Below, one piece after another: positions 681-51,880 of a stretch of 64,000 nucleotides of DNA. Under the pieces are notes generated by a model. That model had not been told where the DNA came from. It was given only the letters and a program-made list of their open reading frames with translations, and ran no database searches. How positions within the stretch are numbered: position 1 is the stretch's first letter; each line of letters opens with the position of its first letter. The stretch is from Branchiostoma floridae. Taxonomy: Eukaryota; Chordata; Leptocardii; Amphioxiformes; Branchiostomatidae. A program made the translations under genes and the position numbers. The DNA is taken from NCBI RefSeq assembly GCF_000003815.2, contig NC_049981.1:31420248-31484247 (forward strand), written 5' to 3'.

Positions 681-3600
681 ATGTCGGTGATCAGTGAAGA
701 GTCCCGTCCCCCCACGGCCCTGTCCCGGGCCAGCATCTCGACATGGGAGATCCCCACCCCGCACTTTCCGCACGAGAGGGTGGGCAGGGGTAGGGTGCTG
801 TTCACAGGTGAGAATATTCCCCCAGGGTTTTTCTGTCGCTTAAATCTAAATCTTTCTAACACACGCGTCTGGGGACTTGTTTGTTGTGGGGGAAACTGAG
901 ACGTATATCACCGTCTACTCTTGCTTTTATAATGGTAAAGTTTTAAGTTTTATTGATAAAGGCGTATAAACTTGGAAAAAAGTTCTTGGTAATGCAGTAT
1001 AGAATCGTCGTCAAATAGCAATTTTATCGTCATTAAGGTACTCTATACTATACTCTGGCTGTAGTGTTTGTTACATGAAGCTTTCACGCGACCAGGACCA
1101 CGTATTTGTTGTGAAGAAAACTATGGATAGCGAGTTTGCCCTAAGCAGAAGTTTTAAGGGGTTTCAACTTGAGGTCCTTCTAGATTTAAGGGTAATGTAA
1201 AATAAAATCGTCGTCAAATAGAGATTTTATCGTCATTGGGGTCTTCAGGGGGTGACTGTAGTGTTTGTTATGTAAACACATAAAGCAATTGTGTCTACCG
1301 TGTACAGCACTGGAAATCAACCAGTTGAGAATACCAGACAATTTCGAAAATATGCACCGGGAAAACACGGCATAATGCCTTTCCAACTGCATCACTTCGA
1401 CACTTGAATTTAAACAAATATAAGGCCAAAAATCGTAATCTTTCCGGAATTCCATTGAGCTTGCATCTCTTATTTTGTAAACATGATCAGTTGCTGGACT
1501 AATGTTTTAAGGCGTGTAGTGTCTCCAGTCTGCCAAAGAAACTGACTTGTTACTTTAAGAGCTTAGGAAAGCGCTTCATGTTGTTCAAAATCGGACAGCG
1601 AAAACGTTTAAGAACACTAATTGGTATCGAAGCAAAGGCTGAGGGTTGTGCAGAACCGAACAAAAGCCTGCAGAACAAGTGGAACAGGTGCGCGGCAGGT
1701 GGTCGCCTCTGTTGTAGCAGGTTTTATTCTAAGGTTTTACAGTTACTTAACTCTTAAGGGTGTCTCAAGTACAGGTTTTGTAAATGATGTGAAGTAAATA
1801 GCGCTTGATTTGTACACCTACTGTCACCTTTGTATGGCTTGTAAATGCAACATCCCTACACTACACTCGTCTTTTGTATTGAGAATTACAACGTGACCCA
1901 TTTCTCTTTCATATTTGCCGATATCAACTTTAGTATCCCCAAACCAAGCTCTTTCGGCCGTTGAAGTTTTGCAGGCCTGAAATTCTACCCGAACTGGATA
2001 TTTTGGCCACAGATTTCTTCTGTTACTGTCTGTGGTATAACTCGGTCGAAGTGAGGCACACAATACGCTGAAATGATTAGAAGGCTGTGTAACAATGAGT
2101 TAACTATGAACGCGTCACTATGACCACCTCCCCAACTCAAACAACTCCAGCCGACCTTATCGCCCGCTGTGGACCTTAATTGTCCAGACCGACGCTCTGA
2201 TTGTCGCCTTTTTCATCATGCACGCATATCATTATTGTGACCGGTGGTGTCAACACGACGTATAACGTTACAGAGTGACCTCAATAAATCTAGACATTTG
2301 AACGGGCGTTGCAGACATTTCCGTCTTCACAACACCGATCTCAATTAAAGCTTCGCCATTAGCAGAATATACAAAGAAAAGCCCTCCTAACGCGATTGTA
2401 ATCCATCACCATTAGGTTAAGCACACAGAGGCGAAGGCAACACAAAACTTTTGATACTGCTGTAAGAACAACATTGTAAGACTTGCTGAAGCCTTGGACA
2501 ACCATGAATCACTGAAAGAGACTACAGCTACATTCTGTTGATTCAACACTAACACAACGAGGAACAGGCTTTTGGAGAATAAAAAAAAAATGATACACTG
2601 CTATAGGCTAAGCGGTAGCCGGAAAAAATGAGTGCTGAAACGAGGGGGGGGGGGACTCCAAGTTGCGTCTTATTTTCACTGACTATTTCGTACGGTCCAA
2701 ACAAATTCCGAACCGGAACCTTATACTTATGTTTTGTACATGTTTATACAATAATCTCCAGGAGTGGACTGCACTGAAAACACTACAGTAACTCTAGAGC
2801 CATCAATGTTATATCCAAGTCTGGATTTTGATGATTTTGACTTGGTACCACTTTTTCTATAGCGCATGGGTGCGATAATCTGAGCATGTACTTTTTGCTC
2901 GTTTCTTTGCACTGTGTATTTGTTGAACGTGAGTTATCGTAAACTTTCTGTGCTTACTTCAGAAACGTAGCGACAACGCATTACATTAAATCGGCAGACT
3001 GGCGTAGCTTCCGCTAAATTCAGGCGCCAATTACGTATACGCTTTACGTATACAATGGACCGATTACGAATTGTTTTTCAGCTGTTCGGCTACGAATTAC
3101 TATACGTGGATTTAGTATAGAAACTAATAGAAGGATATGCATGAGGATATTCGATACTTGCTTGACTGACATTTTTTTGTCAACCCCAGGCGTGGACGGC
3201 ATGTCCGACTACCGCGTGAACGTGCCCGACGAGGTGCGGCACACCGGCATCGGCACCATGTCCCCCGAGGGCACCAGCGAGGTGCTGTACCTGTGGCGCG
3301 CCGCCAGGGGGACCCCCTTCCCCCTGGGGAAGCACCAGAGGGTGGGGGAGATCGGCTGGGCCATCCCCGAGCTGGGCGACAGGCGGGCGCTGACGACTAA
3401 CGCACATTTCAAGGTACTAGTATATGGGAAACTCATTGTTTTATCATACACTGGGCCTCTACCAGTGCTGTAAGTTAACTACGCGAAGAAAAGAATGACT
3501 GGAAGATTTATTGACACAACAAAAGTAAGGAGACTTACAATGGCCTTCCGACTTTCCACGGGTACATATTGATAACAATATGAAAAAAAGACTTGTCAGG

Positions 3601-5878: not shown

Positions 5879-6351
5879 NNNNNNNNNNNNNNNNNNNNNN
5901 NNNNNNNNNNNNNNNNNNNNNNNNNNNNNNNNNNNNNNNNNNNNNNNNNNNNNNNNNNNNNNNNNNNNNNNNNNNNNNNNNNNNNNNNNNNNNNNNNNNN
6001 NNNNNNNNNNNNNNNNNNNNNNNNNNNNNNNNNNNNNNNNNNNNNNNNNNNNNNNNNNNNNNNNNNNNNNNNNNNNNNNNNNNNNNNNNNNNNNNNNNNN
6101 NNNNNNNNNNNNNNNNNNNNNNNNNNNNNNNNNNNNNNNNNNNNNNNNNNNNNNNNNNNNNNNNNNNNNNNNNNNNNNNNNNNNNNNNNNNNNNNNNNNN
6201 NNNNNNNNNNNNNNNNNNNNNNNNNNNNNNNNNNNNNNNNNNNNNNNNNNNNNNNNNNNNNNNNNNNNNNNNNNNNNNNNNNNNNNNNNNNNNNNNNNNN
6301 NNNNNNNNNNNNNNNNNNNNNNNNNNNNNNNNNNNNNNNNNNNNNNNNNNN
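5879..6351. other. Assembly gap, 473 N
   Basis: Run of undetermined bases; open frames spanning it are artefacts. The gap starts inside an inverted-repeat element, a common cause of assembly breaks. Confidence 0.99.
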
Positions 6352-7833: not shown

Positions 7834-7941
7834 TCAGAAAAAGACTGTCTCTAAGAAGACGTAGAACAGCAAACACAAGATGCCGATAATCAGGAAGTTG
7901 ATGACCAACAGCTGGACAGTCTGGATAGTTGACGTGTCCAT
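7834..7941 (-). CDS. Phospholamban/sarcolipin-like micropeptide, copy 1
   Basis: A 35-codon frame begins at the ATG at 7941 and ends TGA. It has a polar N-terminus (MDTSTIQTVQ), a hydrophobic helix of about 20 residues beginning LLVINFLIIGILCLLFYVF, and the tail ETVFF. The motif Q-x-L-x-I-N-F aligns without gaps to the transmembrane start of phospholamban. The frame continues open upstream, but a good acceptor (ACCAATTTCAG) lies 18 bases before the ATG, so a non-coding 5' exon is likely. This is the most downstream member of the array and the only one with Val in ETVFF. Inference: a single-pass membrane regulator of a SERCA-type calcium pump. Another class of small membrane protein is possible. 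Confidence 0.75.
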   Translation of the reverse strand: MDTSTIQTVQLLVINFLIIGILCLLFYVFLETVFF

Positions 7942-8610
7942 TCTCCCTTCTTCTTCCTGAAATTGGTAACAAGAACTTGGAGACAGAAGAAAACTGTCCA
8001 TGACTATGCATGATGTACCAAATGACCAATAAACTGGTTGACGTACCAACTGTCAAGTATCTAATATCAGCTAAGACAAGAACAAGAGATAACCATGCCT
8101 TCAAGTAACCAAAGCTTTCAACCAAGGATTGATGTGCTGAAACTTTTCAAGAACTATTATAGAGTGTAGCCATCAAGTAATGTACTAGCATCCCCACTAG
8201 ATAGCTAAAACAACAATTCAGTCAGATGTGCGAAAGTTATGTGTGAAGGGCCATTCAGTGTAACATAACCAGCTGCTGCCGCGCCGCGTGCCTGTGAAGC
8301 TGGCGTGTTACGACGGGCGGTCATGCCGGCTATATACTATTAGATACAGATCAAAAGCTGGTGTGTTACGCCGAAGAACAGCTATATACAGAAGAAACAT
8401 AATCTTGAAGAAAATTGTTTACACTTTGATTCTTTCATGTGGAAAGAGCCATATAATACAGGAGTCCTTTAGAACTTCAAGTTTGACAAGTAAGAACATA
8501 CCCGAATCCGGTCCTTGCTCGTGTTCCTCTACCGGCAGTTCCCTGTGGAGAGATATGCACGAGAGATGAGAGTCAGTCATGGAAGGATTACAACTTCTGT
8601 AGGACTAATA

Positions 8611-8854
8611 CTGTAGAAGCCAGTTTATTGCACAACGGATTAACGCACACTTCTGTTAACTGCGCGAAATCCCAAAATTCCAAACCGGTGCGGTCTAGCC
8701 CGATTAAATCTCGCTCATTACAGCCCTGGACAGCAGAGTTTGTGTTACACAGACTAGGTGCGGTCCACCTGGATAACATCGCATTATTGCACCAGCCGGA
8801 TAATTGTACGAAATGCGCTGGCAAATAGGCTGTGCAATTAAACGGCTTCTACTG
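8611..8854. mobile_element. Tc1/mariner (pogo)-like MITE with TA duplication
   Basis: The termini are CTGTAGAAGCC and GGCTTCTACTG, flanked on both sides by TA. The arms extend into TTTATTGCACAAC and its near complement. A second copy lies at 42427-42586. No coding capacity. The TA target and CWGTAGAAGCC ends suggest a pogo-type parent. Confidence 0.8.
8695..8756. mobile_element. 62-bp insertion with 8-bp target duplication, nested in the MITE
   Basis: The insert starts CTAGCCCGATTAAATCTCGC and ends TTTGTGTTACACAGACTA. It is bounded by exact 8-bp repeats GGTGCGGT (8687-8694 and 8757-8764). The related MITE at 42427 lacks it, and a 108-bp relative sits in a LINE at 56150. It is one of the smallest mobile units in the window. 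Confidence 0.75.
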
Positions 8855-9251
8855 TAGTACAAAGTCATCAGAAAATCTATCAACCCTGTATAGCATTGAC
8901 GTGTTTTTTTCCAATCACTCTATCGGCCTTTCTCTGTCGGTTTCTGATTCGTGTGTCATCTTTACAAAGGTGTTCCTGGTTCTGTGCTAGAAAGATGGTA
9001 ATCAAACAACCATGATAACTAAAGACATTGATACGATAGTATTATGTAATGATCTATTTAAAAGATTTTAACTATACATAGCTGAAAGAAAAAAAGCAGC
9101 GATTGCTGTGAAGAAAGCAACAGGGCATGTAAAACTGCGGACCGAACAGAAAAGGGATAAAGCCTTATGCACTTTCTAAGACTAGAGAACGATTAACGCA
9201 AAGTTGCTTTTTGTGGCGGAGTGATGCGGTATCACTTTATCGTTACACTTA

Positions 9252-9464
9252 GGGCGCGGTCACATAGGTTGTGCGATCGTCGCACGATTTTAAGGACTTA
9301 GGATTTTCAAGCAGGCCGTGACAGAACCAACCACAGACATGGATCCAAAACAGCATTTTGTGTACCAAGACAGTTGAACTTTGCATGAGACGTACATTTT
9401 TGTCCTTCAAAATGCCCGAAGTTACTGATCGTACGACGATCGTACGACCTATGTGACCGCGCCC
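9252..9464. mobile_element. MITE, 213 bp, GGGCGCGGTCACATAGG termini
   Basis: GGGCGCGGTCACATAGGT at the left is exactly mirrored by ACCTATGTGACCGCGCCC at the right. The inner arms carry a second inverted block around CGTACGATCG. No coding capacity. It lies between micropeptide copies 1 and 2. Confidence 0.85.
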
Positions 9465-10144
9465 ATAAATGACAAATTTGGTACGCATACAGCACGAGGG
9501 GATATCGTGCCCTTATATCTACATTATAAGTTTGCAGAAGAAGCAGAGCCGCGTTGATAGACCGCTACAAGCAGCAGAAGACTGGAGATACGACAGAAAA
9601 GACTGGCGGGCAGCAGCTGCATATATGTAGTACCTGGTGGAGGGTAAGGCGTTTCTTCAACCATCTCACCCTTCCAGCAACAACACTTCGTGGGATACAT
9701 CCAACCATGGACCAGTTTTCGACCAGCTGTCACGTGGTCCAACAGCGTGTTCTGATTGGCCAATGACGATGTATGACTCTAACTAGCTCCTCAAATTTTC
9801 ATAATCAGATACATGTAATTTGATGTACATATACGAGCGGTAAACCAAATAAATATGACTTAGCACAAACTACAACATTGAAAAGATTATCAATTCGTAT
9901 GCAACAGTCATGAAATAGTAGGACCTGAAATGTGGCTACTCTATTTGTACATTGTAAATGTATTCAATTTCGATCACCATTCTCTGAAAACAAGATGTAT
10001 AAATATGCTATTGACACATTTAGAAGATTAGTGCTAGTTCTTGCATTTGGGCGGGTACCTAACCCGTTTTTCTTCTTGCTTTCTAACCTCTCATCCTACC
10101 GATAAATCATTGGCTAAGTAGTAACAATCTTCAGCGTCTATTTT
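9465..10144. other. Spacer between micropeptide copies 1 and 2
   Basis: AT-rich with no supported gene. The last part is presumably the 3' untranslated region of copy 2, but no convincing poly(A) signal was pinned. Confidence 0.4.
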
Positions 10145-10252
10145 CTAGAAGAAAAAGGTCTCGAGGAACACGTAGAAGATGACACACAGGCACGCGATCA
10201 CCAAAAAGTTGATGACCAGACTCTGAGCGTTTCTGATCGTGTCGGCGTCCAT
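10145..10252 (-). CDS. Phospholamban/sarcolipin-like micropeptide, copy 2
   Basis: A 35-codon frame, ATG at 10252, stop TAG. Sequence parts: MDADTIRNAQ, then SLVINFLVIACLCVIFYVF, then LETFFF. It is the most divergent N-terminal half of the array (Ser replaces Leu after the conserved Gln; Val in NFLVI; two Cys in the helix), yet INFL, FYVFLET and FFF are unchanged. Nucleotides differ from the other copies mainly at third codon positions, which indicates selection on the peptide. A polypyrimidine tract ending TTTTCTAG lies about 50 bases upstream of the ATG, so the start codon is probably in a second exon. Function as for copy 1, by inference. Confidence 0.75.
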   Translation of the reverse strand: MDADTIRNAQSLVINFLVIACLCVIFYVFLETFFF

Positions 10253-11012
10253 CTTGCAGATCGTCCAGGCAGATTCCACTTTGATACACGACAGTTGATT
10301 GTTCTAGAAAACAAAACGGTACCAGTACGTATGCACCGTCCGGGAATTCTAAAGTTTCTGGCGAAGCAGACGTTTTAAAACGTAACACCATGTTGTCGAG
10401 TCGTAGTGTGTAAAATTACAGGAGTAGAAAAAGCACCAAGGAACTAGACAGACCTACGGTTAAAAAGAATCATTACAATATATTTACCCACACTCTTCGG
10501 GACGAAGACAGCACAAGACTTATACTTCTATTTTAATCGGTTAAGTACAGTGGAAAAACTGAACATAGAAGGTACAACGAGAACATAAGACATGTGTCAA
10601 ACATAGGGAAACTTGTACATATGAAATTATTTAGTATGGATCCTCATATGTGTTGGTACAATCCAAAATTTGAGGTGATCAATTTTGCGTTGTTCTGAAC
10701 GAAAGTATCAAAACTTCATCATGAAATTATATGAATATGTGATTTTTCTCATTTCGTTAACATGCGTACATACCAAGATATACCTACATATTCATAGTGC
10801 TTACATATGGCTATTGCAGCATATGGCTATTACAGCATATGGCTACTATAGCACATGGCTATTACAGCACTTGGCTATTACAGTATCTTCCATAGAGAAC
10901 TCCCATAGAGACCACCAGCTATGTAAGATGACATGACATGGCAAGACAACATATATGCGTACACATGCGTTAAAATAATCATCTTCCAAGCAGAAAGAGA
11001 AGTTTAGGAGAT
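10253..11012. other. Spacer between copies 2 and 3
   Basis: No gene seen. It contains a short minisatellite (10807-10886). A plus-strand 83-codon frame across that minisatellite is a repeat artefact. Confidence 0.4.
10807..10886. repeat. Minisatellite, five 16-bp units
   Basis: Five consecutive units of about ATGGCTATTACAGCAT with one to three changes each. Confidence 0.85.
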
Positions 11013-11126
11013 CTAGAAGAAAAAGGTTTCCAGAAAAATATAGAAGACAATACCCAAGATTCCGATGATCAAAAAGTTGATCACAAGAAGCTGGACCTGC
11101 TGGAGTGTGCCTTTATCAACCTCCAT
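11013..11126 (-). CDS. Phospholamban/sarcolipin-like micropeptide, copy 3
   Basis: A 37-codon frame, ATG at 11126, stop TAG. Parts: MEVDKGTLQQ, VQLLVINFLIIGILGIVFYI, FLETFFF. Its N-terminus is the longer MExDKxT form shared with copies 5-7. Gly replaces the mid-helix Cys, as in copies 5 and 6, defining a Gly subgroup. The core Q-L-L-V-I-N-F is intact. The bases before the ATG (GTAGAGAAAA) contain no acceptor, so the 5' structure is unclear. Predicted single helix with the short acidic N-terminus cytosolic by analogy to phospholamban. Confidence 0.75.
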   Translation of the reverse strand: MEVDKGTLQQVQLLVINFLIIGILGIVFYIFLETFFF

Positions 11127-11512
11127 TTTTCTCTACCCCGGCGGCTCTCCGATTTTACTGTCAGTGTTTTGTTTTTCGCGAAGATACTTAAAAAGACTGT
11201 TTGTGATGATCTTGCAAAGTGTCAGGATGTTCTTCTGATCAGCGACGAGCACACACCTGACGGCAACCAACGCCTTCGTCACACAAACACAGAAACATGG
11301 GGACGACACAAACAGGCAGTCGTCAGTACTTTAAGTCACCACTGCTCTGAGTCAAACCTATATTAGTGACCACGTCTGCATATGGGACGACGTGGTCATT
11401 GTTAATCATTTTTAGTGGTCCCTTGAATTATTTTTCTAAATTACTCAAGTGTTAAGAATCCTGCCTATAGTATCCACCTGTCTGCTGTGACAGTTTTCTT
11501 CAGGTGCGTTGC

Positions 11513-11599
11513 GAGTGGTCACTATAGACAGGTTTGACTGTGAGTGGTCACTATAGACAGGTTTGACCGTGAGTGGTCACTGTAGACAGGTTTGACTGT
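11513..11599. repeat. Three 29-bp direct repeats
   Basis: GAGTGGTCACTATAGACAGG followed by TTTGACTGT occurs three times head to tail with two substitutions. Confidence 0.85.
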
Positions 11600-12724
11600 A
11601 ACGCAGGAATGTGTCGGAAGTCAGATCTGTTTATGCCAACTTGCGTGAAAGAAAGCGTCAACGCTTAATTAAGGCAATGAACGTCACAGCACAGAAATGT
11701 ACAGCAACTGAAGGACGCGTATTGAAGGCAAAGACAGGCGACTGGCCGCTGTGTGTATAAAAAACAAAATGAAGCTGGCATGGCAAAGTGGTAGCTAGGA
11801 TTGCACGTCTGCACTCAACAGCGGATCCAATGGCACAAGTGATTACCCACAAGCTGTAGGGATGCAGAACCCTTGTTTTAACATGATTTGTACGCCGTCA
11901 GTCAACAAATGGCAGGAAAGAAAAAGAAACTATGACAAAGCAGTTATATAATTGGCTGCACTTGTCCAGTCATGGCATGTAACGTTATGTCAAGATTAAC
12001 GTGCGACTGTAAGGTAATGATGTTTTAGGTCAACATGTAATGAACACATCACAGTTAGATGTGAAAAACACGTTATTCACGTGCCTTGATAATGGAGAAC
12101 TTATAACAGCAACAACAAAAAACAAACACATGGTTCGATACAAACAAGAGAGACCAAGGACTGTTCAGAAATATAGAGGCATTAACGCTATCAATAGTAA
12201 TGTGTTACAAACATGTATGTACCCGTCACACATAACGTTGCACAGACACGTACTTATCATATGTGTAAAAACGTGAGATTTGTCATGGACGTACCTGAAA
12301 GCGTTCTGATGTTTTCCGTTGGTCAATTCCTTGACAGACCTGGCTCAAGTCTGCAAGGAAGAGTAGGACGTGTTCGCAATGAAAACTTGCTAGTCTTCAA
12401 CTTCAGACCACAATGCAACGTTTTAAACTCATATGTGGTATTCTGAATTGTATAAATGCTTCGATACATTTGTGTATTGTAACACAGTCACCATGTCCTC
12501 GCTGAATAGGCAGACAATACTACACACTTACATGTAAGAAATCTATTTACCAAATTGCTTTTAACGGTTATGCGTGTATCGCCTTGAGCTGACTCAGTGT
12601 ATCCATGTTTTCTGCATAATGCTGGGGAAAAGAACACTATTTTGCAGCGAAGTATTAAGACAGTAATTTTCTTAGACTTCAGACATTACGATCACAACAT
12701 ACCAGCCAGACCGACAATATGCAA

Positions 12725-12730
<6 letters not shown>

Positions 12731-12778
<48 letters not shown>
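12731..12778. repeat. (TA)n microsatellite
   Basis: About 24 uninterrupted TA units. Confidence 0.95.
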
Positions 12779-12780
<2 letters not shown>

Positions 12781-12972
12781 CGTTCCGTACTTTGTTGTTT
12801 AGCTCATGTAACTGTCCACTTTGTGAGAATCTAATTAAACCATTACTGCTAAAACAAATCATAAAACGATAACATTATGTAGAATTAGGATAACAATAAG
12901 ACGTTTTTTTCACAGGCACATAACGAATCAAACAAGTAAAAAACAGACGGACACGGCGACCGACAAACAACC

Positions 12973-12978
12973 TTTAAT
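12973..12978 (-). terminator. Poly(A) signal ATTAAA, copy 4
   Basis: ATTAAA on the minus strand, 550 bases after the copy 4 stop codon, at the conserved 3' edge of the tandem unit. Confidence 0.55.
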
Positions 12979-13524
12979 CACAGCTTTGATGACACTCTAC
13001 GCAACACATAAAACATTTTTATTTTGTTGTTTATAACACCACTCTGTCACCATTGTATTGTTGGTGATTCAGATAAAGCCAATGTCTTTATACAGCAAGC
13101 AATGTTCCTGTCACTCAGTACCTTTATCTCAACGTTGTTGCATGCTCTACGAAAGCACGAGCATTAGAAATACCTTGAAAACAAGGCTATGCCCAGATCA
13201 AGTACAGACTCACTTTATCCATGATCGAGCTGTCATACTTGAAAAATATCTTACCATACTAAATCCCAAGCTTATATGACAGTCTTAGGAAATCCTAGGC
13301 TTATATGACAGTCTTATGAAATCCTTTGCTCATATGTCTTAAATCATATACTGATGTGGCAGTATTATGAAATCGTTGGCATACATGATCGTCTCAGATC
13401 ATAGACTACTACTACTAATCTTTGGCTTATGTGACAGCATACTGTTTGAATAAGCAGTCTCCTATCTACCGAAATACACGTGTTTAACGCCTAAGGCATG
13501 GTGCTTCGACAACTTTTACAGATA

Positions 13525-13632
13525 CTAAAAGAAGAACGTTTCCAAGAAAACGTAGAACACAAAACACAAGATGGCGATGATCAGGAAGTTGATCACCAGT
13601 AGTTGGACTTGTTTGATCGTCTCCTGGTCCAT
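13525..13632 (-). CDS. Phospholamban/sarcolipin-like micropeptide, copy 4
   Basis: A 35-codon frame, ATG at 13632, stop TAG. Parts: MDQETIKQVQ, LLVINFLIIAILCFVFYVFL, ETFFF. It has the short N-terminus of copies 1 and 2 but the helix of copy 7 without change, so it mixes features of two subgroups. It is the first member of the 1.5-kb tandem triplet, with its own TATA promoter at 13838 and ATTAAA at 12973. That gives a predicted transcript of roughly 0.85 kb with a long 3' untranslated region. Predicted role: membrane inhibitor or modulator of SERCA (inference). Confidence 0.8.
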   Translation of the reverse strand: MDQETIKQVQLLVINFLIIAILCFVFYVFLETFFF

Positions 13633-13837
13633 GGTGAGTTTGGTGAGTTTGAGTGACTCTTTAAGTCTCAGTTCACTTTCTTAACTTGATGCCTTCGGCT
13701 CAGTAAGTTTACCACTGGTCCAGGGAAGACTGTCTCTCACCAAAGTTCTTGAAGCCTACTTTTATGCCATCACACACACAGAGCATAACATGTTCACAAC
13801 AGTTCACGAACGACATTCTTGGCTTGAATTGGGATGC

Positions 13838-13871
13838 ATATATACTCCATCGGTTCCACATGGAAAAATAG
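13838..13871 (-). promoter_or_regulatory. TATA promoter with E-box and AT-rich element, copy 4
   Basis: Reading the minus strand: CTATTTTTCC (8 of 10 MEF2 consensus positions; its complement holds the NFAT core GGAAAA), then the E-box CATGTG, then TATATAT, about 210 bp before the ATG. The block is almost identical upstream of copy 5. Confidence 0.5.
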
Positions 13872-14498
13872 ACTTTTAAGTTCATGTTTACTCTTTTTTT
13901 TTTGGTCTCAATTCAAGCCACCAAACAGACGAGAAACGCATACAAAATATGAGCAGGTCTGTCGGAGCTTCAGTCGAGCCGTTGTAGCGGTGCCGGTGCA
14001 GTGGCAGAGCGAGCGATGTCATGGCCGTTGGCAAGCCCTGGAAATGTTATCTACAATCAGGCGCATGGTTTGCATAAGCACGAAAACTTTGAAGCTGGGG
14101 GCAAATATGATATATGCCAAGAAGAATGGAAACGACAACGCCATTATGGTTTGTGAATTTGAAGACTTAAGTGGTAGGACTGCTAGAGAAGCCAGTACTG
14201 TTTGCAGTCTCGAGGAATACGGAAGCAATGGTCTGAGTATCTACAAGTTTCTATATATGAACTTTCGTTATCAAACTTTGTGTTGGTACTAAATGAAATA
14301 ATGACGAATCAGTTAATCTAGTATCGACTGAGTCTGCATATCGGTGAGTAGTGTTTTTTTTTTGCAAGTATGATGTTACCAGTAACATGTTGAATCACAA
14401 ATTGAAATTATCGGGTCTTTCAATGTCATTAGAACGCTAGTCCAGAAAGAGTAAATGTCTACGAAAAAAAACAGACGGACACAGACCGACAAATAAGG

Positions 14499-14504
14499 TT
14501 TAAT
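14499..14504 (-). terminator. Poly(A) signal ATTAAA, copy 5
   Basis: ATTAAA at the same place in the second tandem unit as in the first. Confidence 0.55.
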
Positions 14505-15047
14505 CACAGCTGTGACGACGCACTATGCAACACATAGAAAATCTTTATTTTGTTGTTTCAACATTATAATACCCTCTACAACCATTGTATTGTCGGTAGT
14601 TCAGATAAAGCCCACGTTTTTATACAGCATGCGATGTTTGTATCACTTAGTACCTTTATATTGTTATACAACATTGTTGCATGTACATGCTCTACGAAGC
14701 CACCAGCATTGGACGCGCCTTGAAAATAAGGCTATGTTTAGATCAAGTACAAACTCAGTTTATCCATGGGCTGTCATGCTTGAAGAAACATCTTAGCATA
14801 CTGAATTCATAGACCTGTATGACAATCTTATGAAATTTAGGCTTATACTTTTTCTTTAATCATATGCTAATAATAATATGGCAATTCTGAAATCGTGGGC
14901 TTATATGACAGTCTTAGATCATAGACTACTACTACTTATCATAGGCTTATGTGACAGCATACTGTTTGAATGAGCAGTTTCCTATGTACCGAACTTACAT
15001 ATGTGTGTCACGCCTAAGGCATGGTACTTCGACAACTTTTACAGGTA

Positions 15048-15161
15048 TTAGAAGAAGAACGTTTCCAAGAAAATGTAGAACACGAAACCCAAGATGGCGA
15101 TGATCAGGAAGTTGATCGTCAGTAGCTGGACCTGTTGGATGGTCTGCTTGTCTAATTCCAT
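15048..15161 (-). CDS. Phospholamban/sarcolipin-like micropeptide, copy 5
   Basis: A 37-codon frame, ATG at 15161, stop TAA (the only TAA in the array). Parts: MELDKQTIQQ, VQLLTINFLIIAILGFVFYI, FLETFFF. It differs from copy 6 by a single residue (Ile for Val in FYIF). Thr replaces Val before I-N-F and Gly replaces Cys in mid-helix; only copies 5 and 6 share both. It sits in the second tandem unit with its own TATA promoter and poly(A) signal. Inferred function as for the family. Confidence 0.8.
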   Translation of the reverse strand: MELDKQTIQQVQLLTINFLIIAILGFVFYIFLETFFF

Positions 15162-15378
15162 GGTGTGTCTTCTTGGGTGAGTTTTTGGTATTCTTTAAGT
15201 CTCAGTTCACTTTTCTTAACTTGATGTCTTCGGCTCAGTAAGTTTACCACTGGTCCAAGGAAGACTGTCTCTCACCAAAGTTCTTGAAGCCTACTTTTAT
15301 GCCATCACACACAAAGAGCATAACATGTTCACAACAGTTCACGAAAACGAACGACATTCTTGGCTTGAATTGGGATGC

Positions 15379-15412
15379 ATATATACTCCATCGGTTCCAC
15401 ATGGAAAAATAG
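15379..15412 (-). promoter_or_regulatory. TATA promoter with E-box and AT-rich element, copy 5
   Basis: Same arrangement as copy 4: CTATTTTTCC, CATGTG, TATATAT on the minus strand, about 220 bp from the ATG. Confidence 0.5.
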
Positions 15413-16073
15413 ACTTTTAAGTACATGCGTACTCCTTGTTGTCTCAATTCAAGCCACCAAACAAACGAAAAACACATACAAAAAATGAGCAGTTCTGTAG
15501 GAGCTTCAGTCAAGTCGTTGTAGCGGCGCCGGTACAGCGGTGAACGAAGTGGCAGATCGAGCGAGGCCATGGCTGTCGGCAAGCCTTGAAAATGTTATCT
15601 ACATACAAACGTTTCATTTGCAAAAGCACGAAAACTTAAAGCTGCGGGCGAATATGATATATGACATGGAAAAATATATAAATAGAAACGACTGGGCCAT
15701 TATGATTTGTGGCAGCATGGAGACTTGAGTGGAGGGACTGCAAGAGAAGCAAGTACAGTTTGCTGTGATGCAAGGGGATCCCGGCCACAAGGAATACATA
15801 AAGAAGTAATGGTCTGAGTATCTACAAGTTTCTTTATGAGAACTTTCTTTATCAGACTCTGTGTTAGTACTAAATGAAATGTTGACGAATCATCTCATCT
15901 AGTATCAGGAGAGTCTGGGTATCGTTAAGTAGTTTTTTGGCAAGTTTGATGTTACCAATAACATATTGAATTACAAATTGAAAATTTCAGGCCTTTCAAT
16001 GACATTAGAACGCTAGTCAAGAAAGAGTGACTGTCTACGAAAAAACCAGACGGACACAGACCGACAAACAAGC

Positions 16074-16079
16074 TTTAAT
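16074..16079 (-). terminator. Poly(A) signal ATTAAA, copy 6
   Basis: ATTAAA at the conserved 3' edge of the third tandem unit. Confidence 0.55.
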
Positions 16080-16620
16080 CACAGCTTTGACGATGCACTA
16101 TGCAACACATAGAACATCTTTATGTTGTTGTCTCGACATTATGATACCCTTTACCACCATTGTATTGTCGGTAGTTCAGATAAAGTCCACATCTTTATAC
16201 AGTAACCAATGTTCGTATCACTCCGTACCTTTATCTCAACGTTGTTGCATGTACATGCTCTACGAAGGCACCAGCATTGGACGTGCCTTGAAAATAAGGC
16301 TATGCTCAGATTAAGTACAACCTTAATTTATCCATGGACTATCATGCTTGAAGAAACATCTTAGTTAGCATACTGAATCCATAGACTTATATGACAGTCT
16401 TATGAAATTCTAGGCTTATATGTCTTAAATCATATGCTAATAAGAATATGGCAGTATTCTGAAATCGTGGGCACAGATCATAGACAATTACTACTAATCA
16501 TTATGTGATTACTTCTAATCATTATGTGACAGCATACTGTTTGAATGACCAGTCTCCTATTTTACCGAAATACATGTGTGTAACGCCTAAGGCATGGTGC
16601 TTCGACAACTTTCACAGATA

Positions 16621-16734
16621 CTAAAAGAAGAACGTTTCCAAGAAAACGTAGAAAACAAAACCCAAGATGGCGATGATCAGGAAGTTGATCGTCAGTAGCT
16701 GGACCTGTTGGATGGTCTGCTTGTCTAATTCCAT
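16621..16734 (-). CDS. Phospholamban/sarcolipin-like micropeptide, copy 6
   Basis: A 37-codon frame, ATG at 16734, stop TAG. Parts: MELDKQTIQQ, VQLLTINFLIIAILGFVFYV, FLETFFF. It is nearly identical to copy 5 in protein and DNA. Unlike copies 4 and 5, its upstream block has lost 9 bp, reducing the TATA box to CTATAC, and a 247-bp MITE sits further upstream. The reading frame is intact, so it may be expressed at a changed level rather than dead. Confidence 0.8.
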   Translation of the reverse strand: MELDKQTIQQVQLLTINFLIIAILGFVFYVFLETFFF

Positions 16735-16926
16735 GGTGTTTTCTTTTGGGTGGGTTTTGGTATTCTCAGTCCACTTCTCTTAACTTGATGCCTTCGGGTC
16801 AGTGAGTTAACCACTGCTCCAAGGAAGACTTCTCGTAGCCTACTTTTATGTCATCACACACAAAGAGCATAACATGTTCACAACAGTTCACGAAAACTAA
16901 CAAATTCTTGGCTTGAATTGGGATGC

Positions 16927-16952
16927 GTATAGGTTCCACATTGGAAAAATAG
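16927..16952 (-). promoter_or_regulatory. Shortened promoter block, copy 6
   Basis: CTATTTTTCC is kept, but the 9 bases corresponding to TACTCCATC in copies 4 and 5 are deleted. This leaves only CTATACGC where the others have TATATATGC. One added base also breaks the E-box. Confidence 0.5.
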
Positions 16953-17144
16953 ACTTTTAAGTACTTGTTTGCTTTTGTTGTCTCAATTCAAGCCACCAAA
17001 CATACGAGAAACACATACAAAATATGAAAAGGTCTGTCGGAGCTTCAGTCGAGTCGTTGAAGCGGTGCTGTCGATACAGCGGTGAATGAAGTGGCAGATC
17101 GAGCGAGGCCGCGGCCGTCGGCAAGCCGTGAAAATGTTATCTAC

Positions 17145-17391
17145 CAGGGTTGGACAGGTTTTCTAAAATTCACTTGTCCTATCAGACAAGCACACAAAAA
17201 ATTTTACTTGCCCGAACTAATTTTTGACTTGCCCAAAATTGAAATGTCAACGTTATATACATTTTCACCTCCAGCAATGGAATTCTTATTATTGCCTCTG
17301 TTTCTCTATGTTGGCCATTGCTTGATATCATGACTGCAAAAAGTATATAAAATCGCACTGGACATAGAGCTAGTGGACTTGTCCAACCTTG
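17145..17391. mobile_element. 247-bp MITE with 5-bp target duplication
   Basis: It starts CAGGGTTGGACAGGT and ends ACTTGTCCAACCTTG (imperfect 15-bp inverted termini). TCTAC flanks both sides (17140-17144 and 17392-17396). The equivalent place in tandem unit 2 (near 15601) and unit 1 (near 14050) reads straight through TTATCTACA, giving two empty sites. The CAGGG ends resemble hAT elements, but the 5-bp duplication is shorter than the usual 8. Confidence 0.85.
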
Positions 17392-17396
17392 TCTAC

Positions 17397-19204
17397 ATAA
17401 AAACGTATGATTTGCAAAAGCACGAAAACCTTGATGCTGCGGGCGAATCTGATACATGGCATGGAAAAATAGAAACGACAGCGATATCATTATGCTGTGA
17501 CACTCGAGTATGGACACTCGAGTGGAAGGACTGCAAGAGAAGCCAGTACAGTTTACTGTGATGCAAGGGGATCCCAACCACAAGGAACACATAAAGAAGC
17601 AATGGTCTGCGTCAAGCTCCGTTTGGAATTGTATCTACAGGTTTCTTCGTGAAAACTTTCGGTATCATACTCTGTTAACGTTGGTACTACATGAAGTGTT
17701 GGCATATCAGTTCATTTAGAATCAGCAGAGTCTGGATATCTTTAAGTAGTCTTTCGGCAATCATGATGTTACCAATCACATGCTGAAATTTAAATTGCAA
17801 TTATTAGACCTTTTTTATATTGAAATGCTGGGCCAAAATAAGTGTCTATCTAATATGTAGATGTACTCTTTTTTTTTATTCAGTCAAATTATTCAGAAAA
17901 CCGTACAGTATTTCTATAACAGTTCTGAAAATGCGAGTTTAATAGTTTTTTCAACATACTGATTTGTTAGTATTTCCTGATTCTAACATATAACATGCGT
18001 TCATAAATTCTGAAGAGGGTTTGCCTGATCGTATCCTTTGACTTGACGTGGTTTTTAGCTCTGTAGGTATGTAGGTATGTGTAAATAGTAAAGTTACGTA
18101 GATTTAACCGACATCAAGTCGTACAACATTAACCTGGAATCCAGGCTGTTCCCAGGGCCCACAAAGGCTAGCCTCCACCAGACTTTTCTCCGGGGGTACG
18201 GGGATGATAGAATTAGGCAAAAAATCCCGAAATTGGCCAGGGTAGTCAGTTCACGCTAAGGTACTAGTAAATCTTTACTGGTCCCTGCAGCAGGCCAAAT
18301 CGTCTGGTGGCAAAACTCCCATGGCAAATTATTATCTGTGTAATAACCAGCATAGTCAGTCTGGTAAAGACAACTTAAAGGTCAGCTCTTCTGCACGGCC
18401 ATCTGGTCTAGCATAATCCCAAGGAAATGTTACTTCAACTTTCATTGAACCGGGTTATTGACTAAATTATCGTAACGAGCGTAGTTGGTCAGACGTGTAT
18501 AGAATTTTACAGTGCCAACTAATCTCAGCCTACAGCCCTGGGAGAGACTTGGACTCGTTTTTTTTTCATACATGCAACAACAAGGAAGAGACGGAAACCA
18601 ACGAACAAACAAGCTTTAATCACAACTCTGATGGAAATGTGTAAAAGAATGCATGACTAGTTTGTATTGCGTGAATTTCAGATATGTAGATAATCTGTGT
18701 TTTGCTGTCTGGTCATGTAAGGGCAATAACAATGTAGCAGTCTCAGGACATCCGGGTATCCTGATATGGATGCTGAATACTAGCTGGAGGTCATGCTTTT
18801 GTGGTGAACAGTATTTCTTCGATCTTTCTTCTGACTACAGCATGCTTTTGACTACAGGCCGTAGCATTCGTTTGTGTGCAGCGTTCTATACGAAAATTAC
18901 TTTTATAGGCACATCCACGGGAGTGCCTCGTTCATAAGGCCACCTCTTGAATTATGCGCAATCTCTTTTCGACCAGCAGTAGGTTGCTATTGGCAACAGG
19001 TGCTCATAGATATGTTCTTTTTTCTATAATTACATGCTTGTACTACATTGTATTAGTCTAAACTACTAGGGGCTGCAAGAGGTTTCCATGTATCACATCT
19101 TTCCAGTTACATATGTACATGTATCACACTGGACAAGTAAGCAGTTTCTTACAATCACAAGGTGTATGCTACTAAGACATCTTGCTTCAGTAAGACAACG
19201 GACA
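17397..19204. other. Spacer between copies 6 and 7
   Basis: No gene seen. It contains the degraded end of tandem unit 3 and the 3' region of copy 7 (ATTAAA at 18615). A 94-codon plus-strand frame at 18653-18937 lies within that 3' region and has no family resemblance. Confidence 0.4.
18615..18620 (-). terminator. Poly(A) signal ATTAAA, copy 7
   Basis: AAGCTTTAATCACA matches the 3' block of copies 5 and 6; about 585 bases after the stop codon of copy 7. Confidence 0.5.
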
Positions 19205-19318
19205 CTAAAAGAAGAACGTCTCCAAGAAAACGTAGAACACAAAGCACAAGATGGCGATGATGAGGAAGTTGATCACCAGTAGTTGGACCTGTTGAAGGGT
19301 TTCTTTATCCAGCTCCAT
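19205..19318 (-). CDS. Phospholamban/sarcolipin-like micropeptide, copy 7
   Basis: A 37-codon frame, ATG at 19318, stop TAG. Parts: MELDKETLQQ, VQLLVINFLIIAILCFVFYV, FLETFFF. I use it as the array reference. Aligned without gaps to phospholamban (offset 17), Q12, L14, I16, N17, F18, I21 and I23 match Q29, L31, I33, N34, F35, I38 and I40, which include known SERCA-contact positions. The phosphorylated cytosolic segment of phospholamban (Ser16/Thr17) has no counterpart, so in length the peptide is closer to sarcolipin. The 5' region keeps the ATCACACACAAAG block of copies 4-6 but not their TATA block. Confidence 0.8.
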   Translation of the reverse strand: MELDKETLQQVQLLVINFLIIAILCFVFYVFLETFFF

Positions 19319-19953
19319 GGTTTAGACGTTACTTAATGTTCTTATTCGCGATTCTTGCTGCCTTCGGGTAAGAAGGTCTTGTCTGGGGTCTTGCCCGCTT
19401 GCAACCAGCGTGCTTGATATTATCACACACAAAGATCATAACATAACATTGGCGAAATATGTAGACAACATAAGTCGTAGAAGTGGGAAGTAAAGAGTGA
19501 CTTTTCAATTTCAAAAATTGATACTTTCTTCTCGACAAAAAATGGCAGATACGCTCTTGGATGTCCCACCTCAAGCCACAGTATAGAAGATACGTCACGA
19601 GACAGACTATCGGGTCTGACGTCTGCACGTTGCTGTGAAGTCAGCAATGATGGTGTGTTCTTGCCGTTACGTCAGCAATGATGTCATGGTTCTTGAGCGT
19701 GAAAATTTCTCGGGTATGGAGTCGGTGCGCGTAGCTAAGGTCATGGCAGGCTAAATGCCTAAGTTATTGTTAATTGAAAATCTTTGCTGTTTACATGTTG
19801 TTGATGGTATTTGTTTAAAGCTTCTGGGTAAAGAGTATTGAAAGCCGCAGATTGGCGATATGCTGCATTCCAGGTGAAAGAAATAAACTGAAACTAAAGC
19901 TTTGGAATCTCCAATTCTCTGAAAAAAGGAGTCGTTCATAGCGCGAAAATGTT

Positions 19954-20112
19954 CATCTCCAAGCAGATCCTACGGTGCCCTAAGATAGTATCAAAGCTTG
20001 CCAAGGAGTATAGACGGCCAAAGGGAGTCAGACGGGCACTGAAGGTGCACACTCCTAGGCCGGCTTCACTACTCTGCCAGCTTTTGCTACGATAGGATCT
20101 GCTTGGAGATTA
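19954..20112. mobile_element. Palindromic MITE, CATCTCCAAGCAGATCCTAC termini
   Basis: The left arm ATCTCCAAGCAGATCCTACG is mirrored by TAGGATCTGCTTGGAGAT. Related elements or halves occur at 24296-24497, 55628-55708, 59889-59925 and 61507-61556. Confidence 0.75.
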
Positions 20113-20330
20113 GAAAACTTTAGCTGCGTGTGCATGTGGATGAAGCTTGAGACAACACCTGACAGTGTGTAAAAGCTCCTGGAAGCTTAAAGTGAGAGCT
20201 TCATTTGTAAAAGCGCGAAAATGTCGAGGCAGATGACGTGAAAACGACCCCTAGCGACTACAGAGCGTCATGAGGCTGTGCATATGTGTCGCGATGCACG
20301 TAGCATGACCAGGGCCGAAAGTATTAAAAA

Positions 20331-20555
20331 AGATCAACTGCAAATATGGAAATATTATGATATTATGAAATGATGATTAGATATCAACTGAAAAAGATGT
20401 GATTATGATATTATAATTAGATAACGTCATAATCAGCTATGAACAGATATTACGTGAATATCACGATATCGTAATCGAAGATCAACTGAAAATATGTGAC
20501 TACATTGATATTAATAACTAGTTTAGTGAATATCAACTGAAAATTAGTGAATTTA
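20331..20555. repeat. Degenerate tandem repeat, about 50-bp units
   Basis: ATCAACTGAAAA recurs at roughly 50-100-bp spacing, followed each time by AT-rich blocks with GATATTA. Confidence 0.5.
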
Positions 20556-21781
20556 TGTGAATTTTTCCGCAAAAAGCTAAGAAGTGATATTATGTAAAAA
20601 GAATCCCGGGGGTCGACGACTTAACAATGGATTAATGCAACATCAAATTTCCATATATTTAAACAGATTTCACATTCATGCGACTGTTAATTATCTAATC
20701 TAGTAAGGTTTAGTTAGAATCAAACTCGTGGAAGTTTCACAGGTGCAAACTAGTTACCACATTGATAATAGTAACGAAAAATAAAAAGTTAAGAAAAACA
20801 TCTATCATTTGGGACGTCTTGCCTTGCATACGATTTTACCTATGAAGAGATCATTGTAAATTTCATACTGTAACTGTAGTTATTGAGACTTATGGCTAAT
20901 GCGGCTATGCTACACTAGAATAGGTCGAAAAACTGTCTGCTTATCATTCAGTACAAATGTAGGTGGTTCTATATTTTAAAGCCTTGAGTAACCCCTCTTT
21001 TCAACGGATATATAAATCATAAGATCACTAAAGCCTGGTTAAGTACTCCAGAAATGCTCTCAGCTACACCGGGTAATGAAATAAAGTAGCAAAATTCCGC
21101 TGGGAATTGCATGAGGCAAAGCCCAATGCTGTTATGTCATACAGCTGTGAACAGCACGTGGACAGCACGTGATTGAAGCCGTCAAGCTGGAGGTATTGTT
21201 GTACAGTAAAACATAAAACGTCACATATAACATGGCGTCAGGACGAAATCAACAGGAATGCAGCCTAACAACCTATGTTGCATATTTTTTCTACGCATAG
21301 ATATTGCAGAACATATATACGGTAAAATTGACGGGACTGGAACTATATAGAAATTAATATTTGGATGCAATCTTTGACTATCAAGAAGAATACCCAGCTT
21401 CACCAAAGTAGCCCAGGTCGTCACCTACCTTAAATCAAGGGCAATGCCTCTCTGTGTCGTCACTTCCGGTTGTCAGTGGCCACAGCCCCTGTGAGGGACA
21501 AGCATGGGCGGATGGAACATTCCTGTGCCATATTTGGAATCTACATATTTTGTTGATTTGGATTGATACTTGTTATCGAGGAAACTGTTTGACAATGTTT
21601 TGCCCTTCAGTAAGCTACATGAGATATCAAGAGATATTCCATTTCTGTAGGGGCAATCAATGAATGTATGCCAAAAAGTAGTTACTCAAGCAACTGGATA
21701 TGATTTTGAAAACGCTCAGACGTTTCAAATAGTATCCACTATCCATTTGTGAAGATTAGACATCCAGGTATCGTTAACATT

Positions 21782-21884
21782 GAAGAAGAATCAATCTTTA
21801 CTTCTGGATACTTTATTTTTTTTTTTTTAAATAATAAATAAAATAAATAATAAAGTATCCAGAAGTAAAGATTGATTCTTCTTC
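21782..21884. repeat. Perfect 36-bp inverted repeat with AT-rich loop
   Basis: GAAGAAGAATCAATCTTTAC and the next 16 bases (21782-21817) are exactly reverse-complemented at 21849-21884, with a 31-bp A/T loop. Confidence 0.95.
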
Positions 21885-22985
21885 AAAGTATCCACTATCT
21901 TTCGTCAGTGACACTGAAGTAATTTGGAAGGAACTGGTCTTTTACACCCTAACTATGAATGAAGATAATTTTAGATGTCCAATAGGAGATATTGTAAGAC
22001 AATGGCCATCAATCAACGAATGAAGTAAATAAATGAAATGAATCGCATGATTGTTCATCAGGATCATCAGACCATCAAAGCTACCACTTTAAAACGTTGA
22101 TTTCCTTGTAAACCATTGTGTATGTTTGCGCTAAAGAATCATCCACGTTTGCACCGTGTGCTGAGTCTACACTGGATACCACATGCACCAAAGCTATTCT
22201 AAGCTACCATGAACATCTGATATGACAGCTCTGCCTATGTCGGTCCCCCATGTGTCCATGTGTACTGTGTAAATGTACATGTATGTACTTTAGTTTACAC
22301 ACATCCGGCTGTAGTGTAGATATGGACTAGGAATTAACCATTGTCTGTACGGACGGATGCCAAGGAGGTTTGCTCAGTAAACAGAGAGACAAGAAGGAGG
22401 CATGATATTAATAATTCTTGTAATTTTCATATTCATTTTATTCTCCTTTACAGTCTGTGCTCAGGAAATTTATGCAATCAATTCAAAAAGACATGAACAG
22501 CCCCAACATCATATGTACCAATCTCAATGAAGCACAATAATTGTAAAGCCCATCTATAGCAAAATCATTTGATAAATTCGTGGCCTCTTCACTCAGTGCG
22601 AACTACTATACGATCTATTTGAAGAAACACTTTCAAATCCACGCAGGTCTAGCCTGGATGCCAGACTGTTTTCAGGGCCTAATGAGTTACACAGGTTGTA
22701 CTTATAAACAAATTACGCTGCTATTTTCGACAAAAATAACTCAATACACCCTTGAGCCATATCTACTCCGTGATTCTACTCTGTGATAGCCTGTTGGTCA
22801 GCTGTGGTGCGTTGTAGCTGGCCACCTGTGGTATGAATGGTCATCAATCATAGGTTCTCTTTCTACAGCTCGAGATCCTTTCTACAGCCATCTGGCCAGA
22901 CCCCTACACGGTGGATGCCATTGAGATCGTGCTGGGGGGGGGGGGTCTAGAATCCAGGCTAACACAGGTGGGTATGACTGTTCTA

Positions 22986-23205
22986 AGGCTTAGGTCCCAT
23001 CGATCCTAGGTCCTACCCGGGCCCGGCTTGGATGTTTAGGGAAACGAAAAATGAAACTGTGGAAACGAAAAATGAAAAGGGATATACATAAATTATACTC
23101 ATGACTAATTTAAAAAAAAGTTCTGCGTGTTTTGTTGCCTTTCTTATTTTTCGTTTCCGAAAGCTACCCGGACGGGTCCCGGGTTGGGAATCGGGACCTA
23201 AGCCT
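22986..23205. mobile_element. MITE, AGGCTTAGGTCCC termini
   Basis: AGGCTTAGGTCCC at the left and GGGACCTAAGCCT at the right are exact complements. The inner arms share CCCGGG-rich and GGAAACGAAAAATG blocks. Confidence 0.75.
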
Positions 23206-23261
23206 AATATAGGCAACTGCTTATTCATCACAACCGTGCATGGCATGTCATACTTTGTGCT

Positions 23262-23375
23262 CTAGAAGAAAAACGTCTCGAAGAAAACAATGCAGACGAT
23301 ACACAAGACTGCGATGATGAGGAAGTTGATGACCAGAAGCTGGACCTGTCGGATGGTCTCTGGCTCTATCTCCAT
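23262..23375 (-). CDS. Phospholamban/sarcolipin-like micropeptide, copy 8
   Basis: A 37-codon frame, ATG at 23375, stop TAG. Parts: MEIEPETIRQ, VQLLVINFLIIAVLCIVCIV, FFETFFF. It has unique changes (Pro at position 5, Cys-Ile for Phe-Tyr, Phe for Leu before E-T) but keeps Q-L-L-V-I-N-F-L-I-I and the E-T-F-F-F end. It is the most upstream member, separated by 4 kb from copy 7. A MITE ends 56 bp beyond its stop codon. Divergence from copy 7 is mostly synonymous or conservative, so it is probably functional. Confidence 0.75.
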   Translation of the reverse strand: MEIEPETIRQVQLLVINFLIIAVLCIVCIVFFETFFF

Positions 23376-30551: not shown

Positions 30552-30651
30552 NNNNNNNNNNNNNNNNNNNNNNNNNNNNNNNNNNNNNNNNNNNNNNNNN
30601 NNNNNNNNNNNNNNNNNNNNNNNNNNNNNNNNNNNNNNNNNNNNNNNNNNN
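30552..30651. other. Assembly gap, 100 N
   Basis: Exactly 100 N, the conventional size for a gap of unknown length. Confidence 0.99.

Positions 30652-47868: not shown

Positions 47869-51880
<4,012 letters not shown>

Follow-up and report, generated by a model that had tools for sequence, protein, structure and literature searches.

We analysed a 64,000-nucleotide stretch of the Branchiostoma floridae genome (hereafter the window), which corresponds to positions 31420248-31484247 of contig C3 (NC_049981.1) in a 513-Mb assembly of 431 contigs. The subject of the analysis is an array of eight short genes on the minus strand, at window positions 7834-23375, whose peptides resemble phospholamban (PLN) and the sarcolambans, small membrane regulators of the calcium pump SERCA. 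A preliminary description of this DNA had reported eight intact frames of 35-37 codons within 15.5 kb, and all eight were confirmed at their positions; each has an ATG and a stop codon, and none is interrupted. Numbered c1 to c8 by position, three of them have 35 codons plus stop: c1 (7834..7941; MDTSTIQTVQLLVINFLIIGILCLLFYVFLETVFF), c2 (10145..10252; MDADTIRNAQSLVINFLVIACLCVIFYVFLETFFF) and c4 (13525..13632; MDQETIKQVQLLVINFLIIAILCFVFYVFLETFFF). The other five have 37 codons plus stop: c3 (11013..11126; MEVDKGTLQQVQLLVINFLIIGILGIVFYIFLETFFF), c5 (15048..15161; MELDKQTIQQVQLLTINFLIIAILGFVFYIFLETFFF), c6 (16621..16734; MELDKQTIQQVQLLTINFLIIAILGFVFYVFLETFFF), c7 (19205..19318; MELDKETLQQVQLLVINFLIIAILCFVFYVFLETFFF) and c8 (23262..23375; MEIEPETIRQVQLLVINFLIIAVLCIVCIVFFETFFF). 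The motif Q-[LS]-L-[VT]-I-N-F-L-[IV]-I and the terminal E-T-[FV]-F-F, both proposed earlier, occur in all eight peptides. Fourteen alignment columns are invariant, including Q10, L12, I14, N15, F16, L17, I19, L22, F29, E31, T32, F34 and F35 (c1/c4 numbering).

The copies differ in age. c4, c5 and c6 lie inside a recent tandem duplication on the minus strand (12958..17813), made of three units of about 1.5 kb which comprise these copies and their flanks and are marked by the direct-repeat families D2-D18, mostly at a spacing of about 1.5 kb. The flanks of c4-c6 are 81-90% identical among themselves, and the peptides of c5 and c6 differ at one residue; these duplicates are a sign that the array has grown recently. 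The term 'near-identical', applied earlier to all eight copies, suits c4-c6 (13.5-16.7 kb) and fails for the rest: peptide identity to c1 is 60-77% for the seven other copies, and synonymous sites are saturated in 5 of the 28 pairs. Used as query against the whole genome, the c4 protein (E<=10) hit eight places, which are exactly the array copies. Given this single genomic site, the array is not a dispersed repeat.

Selection was measured by the Nei-Gojobori method over the 34 codons common to all copies without gaps. The pooled proportion of synonymous differences (pS) is 0.584 and that of nonsynonymous differences (pN) 0.154, a ratio of 0.263 over the eight frames and well below 1; the finite pairwise ratios range from 0.04 to 0.41. 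The third codon position is the most variable, with 28 of the 34 columns varying, compared with 19 at the first and 11 at the second position. When neutral change was simulated with base changes equal in number to those observed, 24 of the 28 pairs, which are not mutually independent, had fewer amino-acid changes than expected (P<0.05); significance is missed by four, the pair c5-c8 and the three pairs that c4-c6 form among themselves. Conservation is also concentrated on the frames. The six diverged copies (c1, c2, c3, c5, c7 and c8) are on average 71% identical within the frame and 59% identical in the 105 bases on either side, upstream and downstream, where pieces taken at random from the window give a baseline of 57% (standard deviation 3). 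Downstream, the flank of c7 is 66-67% identical to its counterparts in c4-c6. The earlier claim that selection acts on the peptide is borne out by these results, and the frames are supported as real coding genes under purifying selection.

AATAAA or ATTAAA occurs within 800 bases downstream in five of the eight copies (a raw count). When the upstream regions of all eight copies were aligned no common block was found, and c4-c6 alone share sequence. In the upstream regions of these three copies (13633-17134) two shared boxes were seen, CTATTTTTCC and CATAAAAG, which are candidate MEF2/SRF-like and TATA-like elements. Because the flanks have diverged, separate regulation of the copies is possible. 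Genes this short are easily overlooked in annotation; the genes of the array may already be annotated somewhere.

Profile comparison with hhalign related the array to two families of SERCA regulators. The array profile matched PLN at 91.7% (80.1% when query and template were swapped), array columns 1-23 lying over PLN 18-40. The two Drosophila sarcolambans, SclA and SclB, were together matched at 87.4% (89.6% swapped), columns 10-36 lying over sarcolamban 3-29. Among the known families, the accepted relatives PLN and sarcolipin (SLN) gave 61-80%, PLN and sarcolamban 1-17%, and SLN and sarcolamban 11-24%. Single members of the array gave 53-87% with PLN (79.9% for c4) and 22-89% with sarcolamban, for which c8 and c3 are low. 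No hydrophobic decoy reached 50% (0/477; highest 20.2%), the decoys being taken from 264 kb made up of the window and 200 kb of flank. Shuffling the columns of the array profile with class and composition kept (n=400) is a stricter control: the observed score was reached by no shuffle for PLN, by one for sarcolamban and by 17 for SLN. The P of about 1e-6 given by hhalign itself is therefore overstated, and values of about 0.0025 (PLN) and 0.005 (sarcolamban) are fair.

Ungapped BLOSUM62 comparison with shuffled sequences, carried out for four of the eight members, pointed most clearly to SclB (c2 P=0.0007, c4 0.0007, c5 0.0013 and c8 0.010). The array scores 42-56 against SclB, and 151 decoys score at most 37. 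All 29 residues of SclB align without gaps, with 11/29 identities to c2, c4 and c5 and 9/29 to c8, and its luminal end YAFYEAAF, as given in a passage of PMC9338278, lies over YVFLETFF of the array. The preliminary description had compared the array to PLN, which holds in part, and this whole-length match to SclB (9-11/29) went unmentioned. Its count of seven identical residues out of the twelve between PLN Q29 and I40 is correct for c4. Of the remaining comparisons, SLN gave P=0.017 with c2, 0.13 with c4, 0.15 with c5 and 0.43 with c8, and DWORF gave 0.017 with c2, one among 32 comparisons. Similarity to known regulators beyond composition was found for PLN and sarcolamban, in the shuffles, the decoys and the BLOSUM62 comparison with SclB (four of four members).

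In the Pfam scan, seven members matched the Phospholamban family (PF04272) at E<=0.1. The highest score is that of c2 (18.8 bits, E 0.0011), followed by c5 (14.9 bits), c6 (14.4), c1 (14.3, E 0.028), c8 (14.1), c3 (14.0) and c7 (13.0). As a yardstick, human sarcolipin scores 16.2 bits on the same model, and none of SclA, SclB, MLN, ELN, ALN and DWORF (0/6) matches it. Of 96 shuffles which keep the polar and hydrophobic positions, one matched Phospholamban at E<=0.1 and two matched DUF4519.

The likeness extends to the arrangement of residues. PLN and the array both have Q-x-L-x-I-N-F, with the residues that are Asn34 and Phe35 in PLN, preceded by a polar segment; SLN, which has 31 residues compared with 35-37 in the array, has L-F-L-N-F, whose Asn11 shares the register. 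L12, N15 and F16, at the positions of PLN Leu31, Asn34 and Phe35, are present in all eight copies, which places the polar residue of the regulins in each. A MAFFT alignment of 11 rows (seven array copies, c5 being omitted, with PLN, SLN, SclA and SclB) puts N15 over Asn34 in PLN, Asn11 in SLN and Thr10 in SclA and SclB; L12 and F16 are invariant in all rows. According to a passage of PMC8396278, PLN Asn34 is essential for inhibition and contacts Thr805 of SERCA, and SLN Asn11 is its equivalent. For the regulins, two competing alignments are described in a section of PMC8087094, so for helices this short the register stays open to some doubt. A single helix over residues 3-34 is predicted, with a mean pLDDT (predicted local distance difference test) of 95, and the best 20-residue hydropathy is 2.6-3.3; with lengths of 35-37 residues, these values describe a short single-span peptide.

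The differences from each family are also clear. The sarcolambans (PF21898) are short single-helix peptides, as are those of the array, but they have Thr at the key position where the array has an invariant Asn, and their N-terminus is 5 or 7 residues shorter. In flies, two sarcolamban peptides come from one locus. The C-terminal half of the array peptides reads F-Y-V-F-L-E-T-F-F-F, whereas PLN has I-I-V-M-L-L, and vertebrates have one PLN gene compared with eight tandem copies here. Myoregulin, endoregulin, another-regulin and DWORF are single-span SERCA micropeptides of 35-66 residues, and their hhalign values to the array are 0.5-1.3%. Nothing above cut-off was found for ALN elsewhere in the genome.

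The array is most likely a tandem form of an already known kind of peptide, the SERCA regulators. Judged from sequence and by analogy, its products are probably tail-anchored regulators of SERCA in the endoplasmic or sarcoplasmic reticulum (ER/SR), of sarcolipin size. The main rival is that the array is a selected, cephalochordate-specific family of single-span peptides with another partner (a P-type ATPase, a channel or a respiratory complex), whose likeness to PLN and sarcolamban is convergence of short hydrophobic helices. We consider this unlikely; nevertheless, a number of results weigh against regulation of SERCA, and some of them are what the rival would lead one to expect. Short hydrophobic peptides score by composition: the column-shuffled profiles reached 50% or more in 12/400 cases for PLN, 9/400 for sarcolamban and 1/400 for SLN, with maxima of 89.8%, 87.7% and 74.8%. 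The sarcolamban match stems from SclB (87.4% alone), as SclA alone gives 15.8%, and SLN gives 10.6-13.1%. In the BLOSUM62 comparison, one of the four members is significant with PLN (c5 P=0.005; c2 0.16, c4 0.14, c8 0.41). Scores to PLN are 36-44 for the array and 45 for the best decoy, and 2 of the 151 decoys reach the array median; five of these decoys are hard ones, at loci picked by the Phospholamban search, and the best PLN decoy is one of the five.

The Pfam and structure databases give further points on the same side. No member reaches the curated cut-off of PF04272 (25 bits), and c4 has no Phospholamban match at all. The likeness to PLN claimed earlier accordingly stands beyond composition (seven of eight members on PF04272 compared with 1/96 shuffles, and 0/400 in hhalign) and falls short of curated cut-offs and of plain BLOSUM62 (one of four). 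Other weak matches compete: DUF4519 (PF15012) is found in five members at 13.5-15.8 bits, against a cut-off of 27, and is the top family for c7 (15.8 bits, with Phospholamban next and both below cut-off) and for c4 (E 0.029). CoxIIa has sub-cut-off matches in two members, including c4 (E 0.082). Sarcolipin (PF05366) and Sarcolamban (PF21898) matched 0/8 members in the Pfam scan, and genome searches with both models also miss the array. In a six-frame genome search with the Phospholamban model the array's sole listed match was c5 (18.2 bits, E 1.03, rank 2 of 13), so the resemblance to PLN alone would not stand out genome-wide. The frame at rank 1 was judged a chance match; of the 12 matches outside the array, five were inspected by eye and rejected as unrelated, one of them having a stop inside the match. 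In searches of PDB, c4 and c5 singly had no match up to E 10, the array profile ranked photosystem II T above PLN, and SLN alone found PLN at E 0.63. A genome search with the SclB protein did not match the array; it had no positive control, hence its empty answer is uninformative.

Sequence features absent from the array point the same way. The cytosolic domain of the PLN family carries an R-R-A-S-T phosphosite; it lies within PLN residues 1-17, which have no counterpart in the array, and the site is found in 0/8 sequences. The luminal RSYQY tail of SLN, on which its inhibition depends according to a part of PMC8396278, is likewise missing from all eight. The N-terminus has no positive charge, and membrane topology is not fixed by charges. 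Invariant residues show no clustering on any single face of the helix (P 0.82), and invariance at the presumed PLN contact sites is 5/8 vs 5/15, which is not significant (Fisher P 0.18). Orthology with vertebrate PLN/SLN found no support in synteny, as judged from two human neighbours of PLN/SLN, SLC35F1/2 and ASF1A: SLC35F is on C9, ASF1 on C15 and the array on C3.

Two findings tell against the main rival. The array fits two regulator families in one register, at scores reached by 0/400 and 1/400 shuffles, and C12 carries a DUF4519 gene that scores above cut-off, from which the array is therefore distinct. DUF4519 was rejected as the identity of the array on this ground; all its matches there are below cut-off. 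The C12 gene, for a small membrane protein, has two pieces above cut-off at 20067642-20068663.

The remaining alternatives dispute that the frames are genes of their own, and both are very improbable. That the frames are the last exons of longer proteins, with N-terminal parts spliced on, is suggested by c1, where the 37 codons before the ATG are open and include one in-frame ATG, giving a longer frame, and several YAG triplets. In the other seven copies, by contrast, the frame is closed by a stop 2-18 codons before the ATG, and no further in-frame ATG occurs in this interval; the interval holds no YAG in c4-c8, and in c2 and c3 its one YAG is the stop itself. The start context is strong throughout, 8/8 copies having A at -3 together with G at +4, compared with 65/1211 ATGs on the minus strand of the window. 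The eight starts amount to fewer than eight independent events, since c4-c6 are recent duplicates and the G at +4 is dictated by an Asp or Glu second residue. Remnants of repeated elements, or chance frames without a product, would suit eight copies within 15.5 kb, of which three sit in the recent units of about 1.5 kb, but no frame is broken, pN/pS is low, the selection test opposes it, conservation among diverged copies is focused on the frames, the start context is again strong, no copy was found elsewhere in the genome, and 176 pattern matches in viral contigs yielded no confirmed relative.

If the peptides are SERCA regulators, their mode of action can be outlined from the known ones. Eight tandem genes would give rise to peptides of 35-37 residues, in which a short, acidic N-terminus is followed by a single membrane helix and a short closing E-T-F-F-F. 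In size, and in the shortness of the N-terminus, they agree with sarcolipin and sarcolamban. The peptide would be a tail-anchored one of the ER/SR whose N-terminus faces the cytosol, and its helix would sit in the groove that M2, M6 and M9 of SERCA form, Asn15 lying at Thr805 and Phe16 alongside. The pump would thereby be inhibited and its apparent calcium affinity lowered, as with phospholamban, sarcolipin and sarcolamban, and the F-rich end after E31 may provide a luminal contact like the SLN tail. A SERCA locus is present on C11 (17.56-17.61 Mb), where the M2 and M6 stretches were read; at least one SERCA gene was counted, the best candidates having been scored. It keeps Phe88, Phe92 and Gln108 in M2 and Thr805 in M6, in rabbit SERCA1 numbering. 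Since these stretches are widely conserved, their presence shows only that a target exists. That several copies have diverged and are under selection suggests a larger supply of peptide, or a supply that differs between tissues, acting on a seemingly single SERCA gene. Regulation of SERCA, dosage and tissue partitioning are what we infer by analogy.

The array is also a possible bridge between the SERCA regulators of arthropods and vertebrates. In its full form, which we put forward tentatively as plausible and short of probable, the array would be a living intermediate of one family of SERCA inhibitors, PLN-like in its N-terminal half and SclB-like in its C-terminal half. The last common ancestor of arthropods and chordates would then have possessed an inhibitor of PLN/sarcolamban type, which would have expanded in the lancelet to eight co-resident genes that set the dose or tissue of inhibition on a single SERCA gene. 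Confidence in this proposal, as in SERCA regulation itself, is lowered because SclA alone matches poorly. Part of PMC4807881 treats sarcolamban and sarcolipin as a single conserved family that runs from invertebrates to humans. The common origin of insect sarcolambans and vertebrate PLN/SLN rests on very short and weakly similar sequences, and a cephalochordate family matching both in one register makes it testable. Eight selected regulators on apparently one pump gene, if true, would be a natural system for the dose and variety of regulators in muscle relaxation, in an animal that lacks a chambered heart. No report of PLN- or SLN-like peptides in lancelets was found in the open-licence literature that pairs lancelet terms with PLN or SLN, and none was among the matches listed for the broader literature. 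By a term search, the main text of a paper on SERCA evolution (PMC3527596) does not mention lancelets.

Other features lie on both sides of the array in the window. To the left, a frame with a DUF4562 domain is found on the plus strand at 3018-3470 (E 3.5e-18). Beside the array on the other side, the minus strand at 33376-62000 holds an exon series which by eye resembles a sigma-class glutathione S-transferase and in which the motifs MGQxPxLE, EEAQ and QAQAD recur. In Pfam, GST_N is matched at 40894-41148 only, and the frames at 33376-33639 and 56286-56558 are unmatched at E<=0.1. Runs of N are located at 5879-6351 and 30552-30651, both outside the array. A tandem repeat with a 71-base unit, and with further periods of 212 and 410 bases, occupies positions 50238-51063.

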